Positions 3,077 through 32,459 of a stretch of 35,484 nucleotides of DNA are shown here, piece by piece. The translations under genes and the position numbers were made by a program. The stretch lies in assembly GCA_030950185.1 (NCBI GenBank), contig JAUZRU010000014.1, positions 1-35,484 on the forward strand, read 5' to 3'. Source of the stretch: Paracoccaceae bacterium (GTDB lineage Bacteria > Pseudomonadota > Alphaproteobacteria > Rhodobacterales > Rhodobacteraceae). The notes under the pieces were generated by a model. The model saw only the letters and a list, made by a program, of their open reading frames with translations, did no database searches and was not told the DNA's origin. The stretch's first letter is position 1; each line of letters begins with the position of its first letter.

Positions 3077-3182
3077 TTCTTCTTTGCCCAAATACTCCCG
3101 CCGGAGGCGCCTGCAATATCCGCTCGCGCAGGCGGGGGCTGTCTGCCCCCGCACCCCCGAGAGTATTGTCGCAAAGAAGAAA
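3077..3182. repeat. Dispersed intergenic palindromic repeat, copy 1
   Basis: Structured element of about 106 bases filling the gap between proS and lolC. The outer arms are TTCTTCTTTGCCCAAATACT (from 3077) and its near inverted partner starting GAGTATTGTCGCAAAGAAGA (3161-3182). Next to the left arm is CCCGCCGGAGGCG. Inside is a perfect 8-bp stem, GCGGGGGC (3132-3139) and GCCCCCGC (3145-3152), with the 5-base loop TGTCT. The block from the stem to the right arm is shared with copy 2 near 10.2 kb, read there on the other strand; the middle (about 3110-3130) is not. There is no coding content; long open frames through it are artefacts. Confidence 0.85.
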
Positions 3183-7160: not shown

Positions 7161-8228
7161 ATGACACAAGAGGTGGAAACAACCCACACCGCATTGCGAC
7201 TGTTTCTGGGAATCACGCCGCTGCTTGCACTGCCCCTGCTGGTGGCGGCTGCACTATGGGGCGGTGTGTGGACATGCGCGCCGCTGCTCTATCTGACCGC
7301 TTTTGCCGCCCTGCTGGACAGGGTGTTCCCGACCAGCGGTGAAGCCCCGGTTTCCCATGTTTTCGGCCTTTCGGTGCCGATGCTCCTTGGGCTTGCGCAT
7401 TTTGTCATTCTGCCTTTGGCGACGGTTTCCGTTGCATCATGGCCTATGGCGCCGTGGGAACGCGCCTTTCTGTTCCTGTCCTTTGCGGTCTTCTTCGGCA
7501 AGGTCGGCATGGCCAATGCGCATGAGCTGATCCACCGCAAGGGGGTGCTGCGCCCCGCCCTCGGCCGCTGGATCCTTGTGTCGATGCTGTTCGGCCATCA
7601 TGCCAGCGCCCATCCGGCCGTGCACCACCGATATGTCGCTACCCCGCGCGACCCCAATTCCGCGCGCCTGAACGAAGGCTTCTGGCACTTTTTCCTTCGC
7701 GCCTGGCAGGGCTCTTTTCGCGCGGGGCTGAAAGTCGAAATCGCGCGCCTTTCACAGCGGGGAAAGCCCGCATTGCACCCGTCCAACCCCTATGTGACCT
7801 ACATCCTCGGGGCGATTGCCACGCTTGCGCTGGCCGGCCAGCTTGCCGGCATTCGTGGTATGGCCGTCCTGCTGGGCTATGCCGGTTTTGCGCAGAGCTT
7901 TCTGTTGCTCAGCGATTATGTGCAGCACTACGGGTTGCGCCGCAGGCAGTTTGAGGACGGCTCGTTCGAGGCGGTATCGGATCGTCATTCATGGAACGCC
8001 CGACAGGCCTTTTCCGGCGCCATGATGCTGAACGCCCCACTGCATTCGATGCATCACACGCGCCCGTCGCTCAGCCATGACCAGCTCGGTCTGCCCGATC
8101 GTTCTCAGGCCCCCTTTCTGCCTGCGTCCCTGCCGGTGATGTCAGGCATCGCCCTGTTCCCGCCGCTGTGGAAACGCATCATGAACCCACGGGTTGCCGC
8201 CTGGGAAAAACGGGCGCGGGTTCATTGA
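7161..8228 (+). CDS. Divergent AlkB-like membrane diiron hydroxylase
   Basis: A 355-residue membrane protein of the alkane 1-monooxygenase/fatty-acid desaturase superfamily. All nine iron-ligand histidines of AlkB can be placed: H121 and H125 (HELIH), H151, H155 and H156 (HPAVHH), H256 (QHYGL), H295, H298 and H299 (HSMHH). The surroundings differ from true AlkB: DYVQHYGL replaces NYxEHYGL, and LNAPLHSMHH replaces LQRHxDHH. Four to six hydrophobic segments flank these boxes. Electrons would come from a rubredoxin or ferredoxin. The substrate is unknown; terminal hydroxylation of an alkyl chain or of a membrane lipid is an inference. The gene diverges from the NuoEF unit across 192 bases. The ATG is weakly supported, with only GAAGA in front. 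Confidence 0.82.
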   Translation: MTQEVETTHTALRLFLGITPLLALPLLVAAALWGGVWTCAPLLYLTAFAALLDRVFPTSGEAPVSHVFGLSVPMLLGLAHFVILPLATVSVASWPMAPWERAFLFLSFAVFFGKVGMANAHELIHRKGVLRPALGRWILVSMLFGHHASAHPAVHHRYVATPRDPNSARLNEGFWHFFLRAWQGSFRAGLKVEIARLSQRGKPALHPSNPYVTYILGAIATLALAGQLAGIRGMAVLLGYAGFAQSFLLLSDYVQHYGLRRRQFEDGSFEAVSDRHSWNARQAFSGAMMLNAPLHSMHHTRPSLSHDQLGLPDRSQAPFLPASLPVMSGIALFPPLWKRIMNPRVAAWEKRARVH

Positions 8229-12361: not shown

Positions 12362-13184
<823 letters not shown>

Positions 13185-29803: not shown

Positions 29804-29817
29804 TTGACCGGCGTCAA
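29804..29817. promoter_or_regulatory. FNR/FnrL-type box upstream of the P450-alkB unit
   Basis: TTGACCGGCGTCAA is a perfect inverted repeat of the form TTGAC-N4-GTCAA, the consensus layout of FNR/FnrL/FixK-family sites in Rhodobacteraceae. Its centre is 76 bases before the P450 ATG, inside the only gap (29779-29886) where the promoter can be. No good -10 could be placed. Regulation by oxygen of two oxygen-consuming enzymes would make sense but is inferred. Confidence 0.55.
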
Positions 29818-29886: not shown

Positions 29887-31326
29887 ATGCCGGATTCTTC
29901 CATGCCAGAGGGGCCTGTGACCTGCCCACATATACCGCCCAAACCCCAATCGCGCGATGGCAAGGTTTCACTGTGGCGATATGCACGCCTGTTCCGGCAA
30001 GACATATTGTCGGCCCAGCCCGCGCGGCTGTATCGGGCCTGGATGGCAGAATTCAGAACACCCTTCTTTCATTCCTACCTGTGCAACGACCCCGCGCTTG
30101 TCGATCTGGTGCTGAAGGAACGGCCGCAGGATTTCCCGAAATCCGAGCGTATCCGCGTGGGGCTGAAACCGCTGTTGGGGGATTCGGTATTCATCACCAA
30201 TGGCGAACAATGGGCGCGCCAGCGCCGCATCATCGACCCGGCATTCGAGGGCGGGCGCCTGCGCACCGTCTTTCCCGCAATGTGGGATGCGGGTGTTGCA
30301 GCGGTCGACCGGCTGCGCCCGCTGGCCGACGGCAAGACCCCCGTCGAGATCGAGGAACAGGCCAGCCATGCCGCCATGGACGTGATCTTTCGCACCCTGT
30401 TTTCGGTGCCTATCGAACATGAAATTGCCAGCGCCGCCTTTGCCGCATTCAAGGCCCATCAAAAGGCGCAGCCACTGGTCAATCTGGGTTCGCTCATCCC
30501 CCTGCCCAACTGGTTCCCCCGTTTCCACAGCCGCAGCGCGCGCGAAACCGCCCGCCAGATCCGCGCACTTATCGGCCAGCTGACCGCCCAGCGCGCGCAA
30601 GAGCTGCGCGAGGGCCGCGCCCCCGATGATCTGGCCACCAAGATCATGACCACCCCCGATCCCGAAACAGGCGAAACATTCGCCGAGGGCGAAATGACCG
30701 ATCAGGTCGCGATATTCTTCCTGGCCGGGCATGAAACATCGGCCTCGGCGCTGGGCTGGGCGCTGTATCTGCTGGCGCTCTATCCCGAATGGCAGGAGCG
30801 CGTCGCGGCCGAGGCCACAAAGGCGTTCGACCCCGACAAGATCTATTTCTCGACGCTTTCCAAGCTGAAACTTGCGCGGGCCGTGTTTCGCGAAACCATG
30901 CGCCTGTACCCGCCCGTGCCGATGTATGTGCGCGAGGCATCCCGGCACGAGACCTTCCGCAAGCGCCGCGTGCGCAAGGGCGCACAGATCATCATCAGCC
31001 CATGGCATCTGCATCGCCATACCCGGCTGTGGGAGCGCCCCGATGAATTCGACCCCGCCCGATGGGACACCCCCAATGGCAAGGAATGCCAGCGCAAGGC
31101 CTATATCCCCTTTTCCGCAGGTCCACGCGTCTGCCCCGGATCAGCCTTTGCCATGGCCGAAGGGCCGCTGCTGCTGGCCATGCTGATGCGCGCCTATCGG
31201 TTCGAACGTGTTAAAGGGCGCGACCCGGTTCCGGTTGCGCATCTGACGGTGCGCACCAAGGACGGGATCTTCCTGCGCGTCAGCCCGCGTGATACAATGC
31301 TGAAAACGCCCGAGGTGGAAAGATGA
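29887..31326 (+). CDS. Cytochrome P450 monooxygenase
   Basis: A 479-residue P450. Marks in order: C-helix WARQRR (W109, R113), oxygen-binding I-helix AGHETSAS (280-287), ExxR in the K-helix (E336, R339), the PERF-like PDEFDPARWD (385-394) and the heme loop FSAGPRVCPG (409-418) with C416 as the axial thiolate. No membrane anchor and no fused reductase, so separate redox partners are needed. The sequence style (PFSAGPRVCPGSAFAMAE) is nearer to fatty-acid-type P450s than to camphor-type ones; I cannot give a CYP number. The stop overlaps the alkB start by 4 bases (ATGA), implying joint production with an alkane-hydroxylase-like enzyme. Confidence 0.93.
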   Translation: MPDSSMPEGPVTCPHIPPKPQSRDGKVSLWRYARLFRQDILSAQPARLYRAWMAEFRTPFFHSYLCNDPALVDLVLKERPQDFPKSERIRVGLKPLLGDSVFITNGEQWARQRRIIDPAFEGGRLRTVFPAMWDAGVAAVDRLRPLADGKTPVEIEEQASHAAMDVIFRTLFSVPIEHEIASAAFAAFKAHQKAQPLVNLGSLIPLPNWFPRFHSRSARETARQIRALIGQLTAQRAQELREGRAPDDLATKIMTTPDPETGETFAEGEMTDQVAIFFLAGHETSASALGWALYLLALYPEWQERVAAEATKAFDPDKIYFSTLSKLKLARAVFRETMRLYPPVPMYVREASRHETFRKRRVRKGAQIIISPWHLHRHTRLWERPDEFDPARWDTPNGKECQRKAYIPFSAGPRVCPGSAFAMAEGPLLLAMLMRAYRFERVKGRDPVPVAHLTVRTKDGIFLRVSPRDTMLKTPEVER

Positions 31327-32459
31327 GCCAAGCACAGCCCGCCCCGCCCCCGGCCTGGCCTTTCTGGCTGACGCTGACATTCGTGCCGCTGGTGGCAATA
31401 TCGGTGCTGCAAGGCGGCTGGTGGATCGCCTTCGTCCCCGTCTATGGCTGGGTTCTGACACCGATCGCCGACAGGTTCTTCGGCCGCAACCTGCGCAATC
31501 CCGACCCAAACACCCCGGATGAACAACTGTTCTGGCATCGGCTGCTGACCTGGATCTGGTTTCCCATCCAGCTGGTGCTGGTCTACTGGTCGATCTGGTA
31601 TCTGACCCACCGCGCCGATCACACCACCGCCGAGAACATCGGCATCATGTTCGGCATCGGCCTGACGACCGGCATGGTCGGCATCGTCTATGCGCATGAG
31701 CTGATGCACAAATCTTCGAGATTCGAGCGCATGCTTGCCGATCTTCTGATGGCGCTGGTGCTGTATTCGCATTTCCGCACCGAACACCTGCTGGTGCATC
31801 ACCCCTGGGTCGGTACGCCGCGCGACACGGTGACAGCACGCTACAATGAGGGGTTTCACCGCTATTTTCCGCGGGTCCTGATTCGCGGCCCCGGTTCTGC
31901 CTGGCGGGCGGAACGGGCCAGGCTGAGGCGCGCCGGCCTGCCCGTCTGGCACCGACGCAACCCGTTCTGGCGTTATGCGTTCCTGCAAGCCCTGTTTCTG
32001 GCAATATCCTTTGTCATCGGCGGATGGGCGGGCATCGGGATGTTCGCCTTTCAGGCCTTCATCGCCATCTGGCTGCTGGAGCTGACAAATTATGTCGAAC
32101 ATTACGGCCTGACCCGCAAATATCTTGGCGACGGAAAATATGAACCCGTCCGCCCCCATCATTCATGGGATTCGACGCATCTTGTCACCAATCTGGTGCT
32201 GATCAACCTGCAACGCCATGCCGACCATCACGTCAACCCGATGCGCCGCTTTCCGCTGTTGCAGGCCTACGGGCCGGGGCAGGTGCCGCAACTGCCCACC
32301 GGCTATCCGCCAATGACCGCGCTGGCCATGATCCCGCCGCTGTGGCGGCGCCGCTTCAACCCGCGGGTCCGCGCCTGGCGAAAACAGTTCTACCCGGAAA
32401 TCACCGACTGGACGCCCTACAAGAAATGGGAATACCCCGCCCCCAAAGGGGCGGGATGA
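31323..32459 (+). CDS. alkB: Alkane 1-monooxygenase family protein (AlkB-type)
   Basis: A 378-residue integral membrane diiron enzyme. All histidine boxes are canonical: HELMHK (H125, H129), EHLLVHH (H155, H159, H160), NYVEHYGL (H260) and LQRHADHH (H299, H302, H303). Six hydrophobic helices surround them. AlkB enzymes hydroxylate terminal carbons of alkanes with electrons from rubredoxin; here neither rubredoxin nor its reductase is adjacent, and the partner gene is a P450, so the natural substrate may be different. The start is the ATG inside the P450 stop region, with GAGGTGGAAAG just before it. A stem-loop overlaps its last codons before the converging gcvP. Confidence 0.9.
   Translation: MSQAQPAPPPAWPFWLTLTFVPLVAISVLQGGWWIAFVPVYGWVLTPIADRFFGRNLRNPDPNTPDEQLFWHRLLTWIWFPIQLVLVYWSIWYLTHRADHTTAENIGIMFGIGLTTGMVGIVYAHELMHKSSRFERMLADLLMALVLYSHFRTEHLLVHHPWVGTPRDTVTARYNEGFHRYFPRVLIRGPGSAWRAERARLRRAGLPVWHRRNPFWRYAFLQALFLAISFVIGGWAGIGMFAFQAFIAIWLLELTNYVEHYGLTRKYLGDGKYEPVRPHHSWDSTHLVTNLVLINLQRHADHHVNPMRRFPLLQAYGPGQVPQLPTGYPPMTALAMIPPLWRRRFNPRVRAWRKQFYPEITDWTPYKKWEYPAPKGAG
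32436..32455. terminator. Stem-loop between converging alkB and gcvP
   Basis: CCCGCCCC (32436-32443) and GGGGCGGG (32448-32455) make a perfect 8-bp stem with loop CAAA. It lies inside the last codons of alkB and 15 bases from the gcvP stop. On either strand the following sequence is only partly T-rich (TATTCCCATTTCTTG on minus), so termination may be weak or may need Rho. Confidence 0.5.

Follow-up and report, generated by a model that had tools for sequence, protein, structure and literature searches.

An overlapping cytochrome P450–AlkB gene pair behind an FNR-type box: a candidate low-oxygen isozyme operon of Rhodobacteraceae

INTRODUCTION

Why would a bacterium place two oxygen-requiring enzymes behind a switch for anaerobic life? 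The question is raised by a 35,484-nucleotide stretch of DNA from a Paracoccaceae bacterium (assembly GCA_030950185.1, contig JAUZRU010000014.1, positions 1 to 35,484, forward strand; hereafter the window), in which the genes of a cytochrome P450 and of an AlkB-type membrane diiron oxygenase overlap downstream of an FNR-type box. Both enzymes require O2, and in related genomes such a pair often lies near genes for oxygen-independent ubiquinone synthesis, an arrangement contrary to expectation. The reading favored here, at a probability of roughly 0.6, is that the pair forms an FNR-controlled operon of low-oxygen isozymes, its two oxygenases serving one pathway on a lipid or hydrocarbon chain. 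The first-pass annotation of this DNA had described the overlapping genes and proposed a joint pathway; absent from it were the box, the anaerobic-respiration neighborhood, the core enzymes encoded on their own elsewhere, the partner that resembles a hydrolase, and the status of the pair as divergent isozymes.

THE GENE PAIR

The elements of the locus, in window coordinates, are listed below.

29804-29817, no strand assigned: FNR/FnrL-type box TTGACCGGCGTCAA, perfect, ending 69 bp 5′ of the P450 start codon
29887-31326, + strand: cytochrome P450 gene, 479 amino acids (PF00067, 256 bits), with I-helix, ExxR, and heme-Cys motifs; pair clade
31323-31326, + strand: ATGA overlap, the AlkB start over the P450 stop, exact in 17 of 21 pair loci
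31323-32459, + strand: AlkB-type membrane diiron oxygenase gene, 378 amino acids (PF00487, 115 bits), related to 8f6t and 8sbb; clade support 100/100
31710-31712, + strand: codon of AlkB K130 (HELMHK)
32169-32171, + strand: codon of AlkB D283 (HHSWD)
32220-32222, + strand: codon of AlkB A300 (QRHADHH); these three positions come from an alignment of pair-clade, core, and canonical AlkBs

Both open reading frames, their coordinates, and the four-base overlap are as first annotated. The P450 carries AGHET in its I-helix, ETMR as its ExxR motif, and FSAGPRVCPG around the heme cysteine, and so matches the combined pattern of AGxET, ExxR, FxxGxRxCxG, and the Pfam p450 domain. The AlkB presents the histidine motifs HELMHK, EHLLVHH, NYVEHYGL, and LQRHADHH, which match the patterns HExxH, EHxxxHH, NYxEHYG, and RHxDHH, together with the FtAlkB fold. 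Its only solved relatives by sequence (E ≤0.001) are 8f6t and 8sbb, each named alkane 1-monooxygenase, and its predicted fold superposes on them with template modeling scores of 0.81 and 0.78, at 33–34% identity in the fold alignment. This fold model was built from a 20-row AlkB alignment and has a predicted local distance difference test score (pLDDT) of 82; a single-sequence model was poor (pLDDT 48.6).

The upstream neighbor of the pair encodes a CAF17-type domain; downstream, on the opposite strand, is a gene that reads by eye as the glycine dehydrogenase gcvP. With such flanks, the pair is therefore a two-gene unit in the window. A tRNA and Rfam search of the window returned no match.

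A BOX SHARED WITH LOW-OXYGEN GENES

Within the 35 kb window, the box TTGACCGGCGTCAA is the sole perfect TTGAY-N4-RTCAA. It also agrees with the FnrL consensus of Rhodobacter capsulatus, (T/C/A)TGA-N6-TCAA, given in the available part of the regulon study (PMC4634722). Across the 2.55 Mb genome the perfect pattern occurs 15 times, while the reversed-pattern control occurs 0 times. Nine of the other 14 boxes were placed beside gene starts: two at a ccoN-like heme-copper oxidase subunit gene and uspA (ccoN and uspA by eye), one at hemN with fnrL, one at ubiT, two at NosR-family genes, one of which faces the cytochrome-cd1 nitrite reductase gene nirS, one at a NarK-family transporter gene facing a Crp-family regulator gene, and one each at a dksA-type gene and at another Crp-family regulator gene. 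The HemN, cd1, dksA, and Crp domains score above their cut-offs; the NarK match falls below, as do the NosR matches, whose frames are cut by the edge of the stretch. FnrL itself is encoded in the genome (NF045989, 420.7 bits against a cut-off of 300), UbiU and UbiV exceed their NCBIfam cut-offs, and ubiTUV sits on another contig with a box of its own. At one contig end, the end of norC is followed by the start of norB (by eye). Because of these box neighbors and the norC–norB end, the organism looks like a nirS-type denitrifier, apparently able to respire nitrogen oxides. The P450–AlkB operon carries the same box as the low-oxygen genes of its organism, and thus shows the feature by which members of the FnrL/Dnr regulon are recognized, an FNR-type box close upstream.

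THE PAIR ACROSS THE FAMILY

The family was sampled as 149 Rhodobacteraceae-group genomes, one per genus, with homologues accepted at E ≤1e-30 for AlkB and E ≤1e-60 for the P450. Of the 149 genomes, 130 contain an AlkB homologue and 131 one of the P450. Among the matches listed, the two genes lie side by side in eight (G000, the window's genome, and G040, G044, G064, G085, G087, G108, and G110), adjacency being judged by eye from place lists that reach about 1e-48 for AlkB and 1e-66 for the P450. The first-pass annotation had proposed such a search, and had taken a pair confined to one or two genomes as evidence against its hypothesis; the spread is wider than that. A scan of named genomes, in which the best 80 of 164 loci were examined, yielded 13 loci with the pair (L034-L045 and L047), which, added to the window and to the loci of the seven remaining sampled genomes, bring the total to 21 pair loci. 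Shimia gijangensis and Maritimibacter fusiformis are among the named hosts. Some of these loci are redundant: L043 nearly duplicates L042, and the window has a close relative in L034 (P450s 95% identical). The locus on contig L045 is of Rhodobacteraceae type and closely resembles L044 and L047, yet the contig is filed under an Acidovorax metagenome-assembled genome; it is probably mis-binned.

The box often accompanies the pair. In the 250 bp before the gene, with loci having <200 bp upstream and short sampled-genome loci duplicating L114-L120 omitted, the FnrL consensus stands upstream of the P450 in 12 of the 21 pairs (11 perfect), 54–100 bp before the extrapolated start, versus 1 of 34 stand-alone P450s (none perfect) and 3 of 89 AlkBs outside pairs. 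These three AlkBs are L022 and two pair-clade members next to ubi genes, L046 and L059. The background, 1.28 Mb of other loci, holds 9 TTGA-N6-TCAA sites and 102 sites of the looser consensus. A box with one mismatch precedes the L116 pair, and L043, L044, L045, and L047, which have no near box, carry a perfect one at ubi genes farther upstream.

Conserved neighbors, which the first-pass annotation had also wished to see listed, point in the same direction. At least one of ubiT, ubiU, ubiV, and ubiD lies near the pair in 11 of the 21 loci (L035, L036, L039, L040, L041, L043, L044, L045, L047, L114, and L116), representative proteins of all four families scoring above NCBIfam cut-offs. A Crp/Fnr-type regulator gene adjoins the P450 gene in eight (L035, L036, L037, L039, L041, L114, L116, and L120), and a yjjW-type radical-SAM activase gene lies 5′ of it in L042, L044, L045, and L047. 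In L045 the yjjW-type gene overlaps a 532-codon frame, yjjI by reading, which itself overlaps the end of ubiV; L119 has genes reading as narG, narH, and ccoO by the pair. Adjacent ubiU and ubiV genes, scored as two adjacent PF01136 matches, are present in all eight pair genomes and in 31 of the 149 overall (hypergeometric P = 1.6e-6, ignoring kinship); at least one such match occurs in 36.

The ubiUV genes and the yjjW-type activase gene could instead speak for protection, the oxygenases consuming residual O2 or NO and so shielding UbiU/V and a glycyl radical enzyme, and the narGH-like and qNOR-like genes, at one locus each, would suit that role. To scavenge O2 or NO, however, a cell would not require a pair of different oxygenases whose occurrence goes with that of a hydrolase-like gene. 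Moreover, heme-copper oxidase genes are already in the genome, and the core homologues of the pair lie outside such neighborhoods, so that protection appears quite improbable.

The qNOR-like gene brings with it a related idea, that an NO dismutase-like enzyme feeds the pair with oxygen at anoxia.

L117:10824-13199, + strand: qNOR-like gene beside the pair, with GIAHNFYW aligned to GIGHHYYY of 3ayf

Its product has Asn for the second His of the HH motif, and Gly at the residue aligned to Asp746. The Glu of its HMWVE is kept, as is the aligned quinol-site His; this Glu, that of the HxWVE motif, we take to be the catalytic residue that dismutases replace with Gln, their quinol site being lost as well. 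The exchange of a metal-binding His for Asn is described for putative NO dismutases in the available part of PMC3413370. The site features of the L117 protein are mixed, such a gene accompanies only one of the 21 loci, and the window genome has the succession of norC and norB noted above, which leaves a supply of oxygen from NO very improbable indeed.

DIVERGENT ISOZYMES OF TWO CORE ENZYMES

The pair has relatives that stand alone. In the P450 tree, the 21 pair proteins and L050 form one clade (support 98/93) amid stand-alone sequences; in a tree of 83 AlkBs, from which even-numbered solo loci L060-L112 were omitted, the 21 pair AlkBs with L046 and L059 do likewise (100/100), on a long stem of 0.39. 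The subgroups of the two clades are broadly congruent, and their deepest order differs, with weak support. With one clade per tree and this congruence, the pair behaves as if inherited as one unit. Second P450 copies at other loci of G040, G044, G085, G108, and G110 fall outside the pair clade. Most full-length matches are 52–64% identical for AlkB and 55–74% for the P450. In Rhodovulum bhavnagarense (L050), a pair-clade P450 and a core AlkB face each other across about 0.8 kb, perhaps a second linkage of P450 and AlkB.

The core enzymes have settings of their own. A mutY-like gene stands directly 5′ of AlkB in 56 of the 80 best named loci. A gene of about 410 codons with a GHSSG motif lies 5′ of the P450 in 25 of 33 stand-alone loci, with a four-base overlap in 22, and the two are usually downstream of a ccdA-type gene. 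The label hydrolase-like is given to this gene because of the GHSSG motif; its protein has no match among Pfam, NCBIfam, and PDB sequences, and the gene of like size and position in Paracoccus ferrooxidans bears the annotation “hypothetical protein.” The hydrolase-like gene is present in 126 of the 149 genomes; three of the 23 genomes without it, listed neither way, were taken as G125, G130, and G136. Its occurrence tracks that of the P450 closely (both/first only/second only/neither: 124/2/0/23). For P450 and AlkB, though usually unlinked, the corresponding counts are 118/6/7/18, and 109/2/4/17 when only the 132 genomes with a completeness of 90% or more are counted, homologues ≤39% identical or outside the listed places being scored absent. 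On sequence grounds, the pair proteins are divergent isozymes of enzymes that most family members encode separately.

Where the pair is present, the core copies may be missing. Neither the core P450 nor the core AlkB was found among the matches listed in G000, G064, and G087, each of which retains the hydrolase-like gene without an intact adjacent P450:

L134:5559-6803, + strand, and, in the window's genome, L223:4933-6156, + strand: hydrolase-like genes, about 410 amino acids, GHSSG
L225:110-487, − strand: broken core P450 remnant in two frames beside the hydrolase-like gene of G064

Both core enzymes accompany the pair in G044, G108, and G110, and in G040 and G085 a second P450 is present, whereas the matches listed include no core-type AlkB. 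Two proteins of the window's genome were considered as its core AlkB and set aside. One, a PF00487 protein on contig C50, is an ordinary-looking desaturase without a tblastn match to AlkB; the other, encoded at window positions 7161-8228, has just 36% identity to the pair AlkB over 239 residues. The latter (+ strand) is an AlkB-like membrane protein in its own right (PF00487, 89 bits; no NCBIfam match), with HELIHR, and LHSMHH where QRHxDHH is expected.

Taken together, these results lend the proposed joint pathway partial and indirect support: one clade per tree, co-occurrence of P450 and AlkB, and core copies not found in three pair genomes. A mobile two-gene cassette hitch-hiking in anaerobic islands, with a box irrelevant to its chemistry, would account for the patchy spread (8 of 149 genomes) and the varied neighbors. 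It would hardly account for a box kept while its spacer letters vary, even where no ubi gene is adjacent, as in the window, nor for core copies going unfound in the three genomes. We consider it of low probability.

UNUSUAL AlkB RESIDUES AND THE ELECTRON DONOR

Three AlkB positions set the clades apart. Residue 130 is Lys in 23 of 23 pair-clade AlkBs and in five of five canonical ones, and Gln in 86 of 87 core AlkBs (X in the other). Residue 283 is Asp in all 23 pair-clade proteins, and residue 300 is Ala; the 87 core and five canonical AlkBs have Asn and Ser at these positions. Since core and canonical enzymes share Asn and Ser, within this sample only the pair clade has D283 and A300. The statement of the first-pass annotation that every catalytic residue is present thus stands for the histidine motifs, which are intact, and gives way at two positions inside them, where N283D and S300A replace residues invariant in the 87 core AlkBs.

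The same annotation had noted that neither rubredoxin nor reductase is adjacent. This is borne out, and goes further: no rubredoxin (PF00301, E 0.001) was found in the whole of the window's genome, whose stated completeness is 100%; a control search matched in 7 of 14 genomes. Nor was rubredoxin found in 106 of the 125 family genomes with AlkB. It is present in 19 of these 125 and in 3 of the 24 without AlkB, that is, without association. Reading the locus as an alkane operon loses ground on both counts. Downstream of canonical plasmid AlkBs, about 35% identical, in Phaeobacter, Marinobacter, and Sphingopyxis come genes for rubredoxin and aldehyde dehydrogenase, and the canonical Methylibium AlkB has rubredoxins beyond an insertion; a plasmid search returned no AlkB ≥60% identical.

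These data bear on ordinary catabolism, in which the P450 and the AlkB would each hydroxylate alkanes or fatty acids, their ranges of chain length overlapping, and would merely be tuned by the FNR box. The AlkB fold and motifs are as such a role would have them. The solved relatives of the window P450 include CYP4B1 and P450 BM3, both fatty-chain hydroxylases, and the canonical AlkB of Rhodococcus ruber likewise has no rubredoxin annotated within the surrounding 7 kb. Set against these are the genome without a detected rubredoxin, the contrast with the plasmid enzymes, the CAF17-like and gcvP-like neighbors, and homologues in so many of the sampled genomes (130 and 131 of 149), which suggests housekeeping. 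Ordinary catabolism is therefore unlikely, though it keeps a real chance of being right.

In place of rubredoxin, an adrenodoxin-like [2Fe-2S] ferredoxin is encoded in the window at 12376-12705 (− strand; fdx_isc 65 bits, below cut-off) and is a possible candidate donor. A Fer2 match on contig C102 near a hydrolase-like gene was dismissed as a donor; the gene that holds it appears, by eye, to encode the reductase component in a phenylacetyl-CoA epoxidase cluster.

A PROPOSED LOW-OXYGEN OPERON

How might the pair work? As O2 drops, or in response to NO, FnrL or a related Crp/Fnr regulator of the Dnr type would bind the predicted box at 29804-29817, and P450 and AlkB would be produced together through coupled translation. 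The P450, the AlkB, and the hydrolase-like protein may share a pathway on a hydrophobic chain, be it a fatty acid, a lipid, or an isoprenoid, the two oxygenases acting at trace O2 either on one molecule or on intermediates that follow each other. In this role the pair would substitute for the core copies at low oxygen, with electrons presumably supplied by a [2Fe-2S] ferredoxin system rather than rubredoxin. What is inferred in this scheme is induction in vivo, activity of the enzymes at trace O2, their joint action in one pathway, a hydrolase function for the GHSSG protein, the kind of substrate, and ferredoxin as donor.

Several observations weigh against the proposal of a low-oxygen isozyme operon. 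Both enzymes require O2, and FNR control could for that reason mean preparation for re-oxygenation and not work at trace O2. The ubi genes are not beside the pair in the window; five of the 15 boxes (L238, L244, L246, L247, and L248) have no placeable neighbor; L118, L119, and L120 were searched for a box and have none; and the L042 contig stops before the region where an upstream ubi box could lie. The co-occurrence counts ignore phylogeny, and whole lineages may be without all three genes. The assembly consists of 167 contigs, among which a core copy or a rubredoxin could be hidden. In published work, neither “alkane” nor “P450” appears in the main text of the FnrL regulon study of R. capsulatus (PMC4634722), and the Dinoroseobacter shibae FnrL/Dnr study does not mention “P450” (PMC5398030). 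Published support comes from a gene annotated “alkane 1-monooxygenase” in R. capsulatus, rcc02390, which is down 7.46-fold and 3.51-fold in a mutant of the redox regulator gene regA in air, in the same table as cydAB and ccoNOQP (available part of PMC5359404); it is taken here by its annotated name.

A bolder version would make the pair-clade AlkB a new, rubredoxin-independent AlkB class, with N283D and S300A suited to trace O2 or to a denitrification-derived oxidant, acting with the P450 on one cellular lipid as the oxygenase module of an anaerobic regulon. This is doubtful, and unlikely to hold. If the isozyme proposal itself is true, an uncharacterized oxygenase pathway of hydrolase-like protein, P450, and AlkB would be common to most of the 149 genera sampled. 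It would also suggest that many “alkane 1-monooxygenase” genes in the rubredoxin-free genomes of this family are misnamed, which would affect metagenomic counts of oil degraders. The pair would then also offer a convenient operon of just two genes with which to look for the substrate.

OTHER FEATURES OF THE WINDOW

Near positions 3100, 10200, and 35450, the window contains similar short stretches with like peptides (YSRGCGG/QPPP) in spurious open reading frames, which suggests a dispersed repeat.

COMPARISON WITH KNOWN SYSTEMS

A search of titles and abstract openings, in which subscription journals are little covered, returned no P450–AlkB operon and no FNR control of either gene. The nearest relative in structure is the AlkB–rubredoxin system exemplified by FtAlkB/AlkG, to which the window AlkB is joined by fold, histidine motifs, and about 34% identity; the window locus differs in that no rubredoxin was found, and in its FNR-type box, its P450 partner, and the N283D and S300A replacements. 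Nearest in sequence are the stand-alone core AlkB of the mutY locus and the core P450 of the ccdA–hydrolase locus, both homologous to the pair. These, in contrast, are non-adjacent in 141 of the 149 genomes among the matches listed, and the box is rare in front of them.

In regulation, the closest parallel is the Rhodobacter FnrL regulon. The sites described in the available part of PMC4634722 include ccoN, uspA, dksA, fnrL, and ubiD; the box of the pair fits the consensus, and ccoN, uspA, dksA, and fnrL recur among the boxed genes of the window's genome.

Rhizobia provide P450s expressed at low oxygen. Their cyp112, cyp114, and cyp117 have a gibberellin-related role. All three are up in microoxia according to the available table passage of PMC6515984, a likeness in expression. 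They are other P450s than that of the pair, and the passage shows no AlkB partner.

A further precedent is cyanobacterial, the low-oxygen operon chlAII-ho2-hemN under ChlR. Its products are tetrapyrrole enzymes and its regulator is unrelated, yet it exemplifies the logic proposed for the P450–AlkB pair: enzymes that use oxygen have isozymes for low oxygen, and these are brought together under an activator that works at low oxygen.

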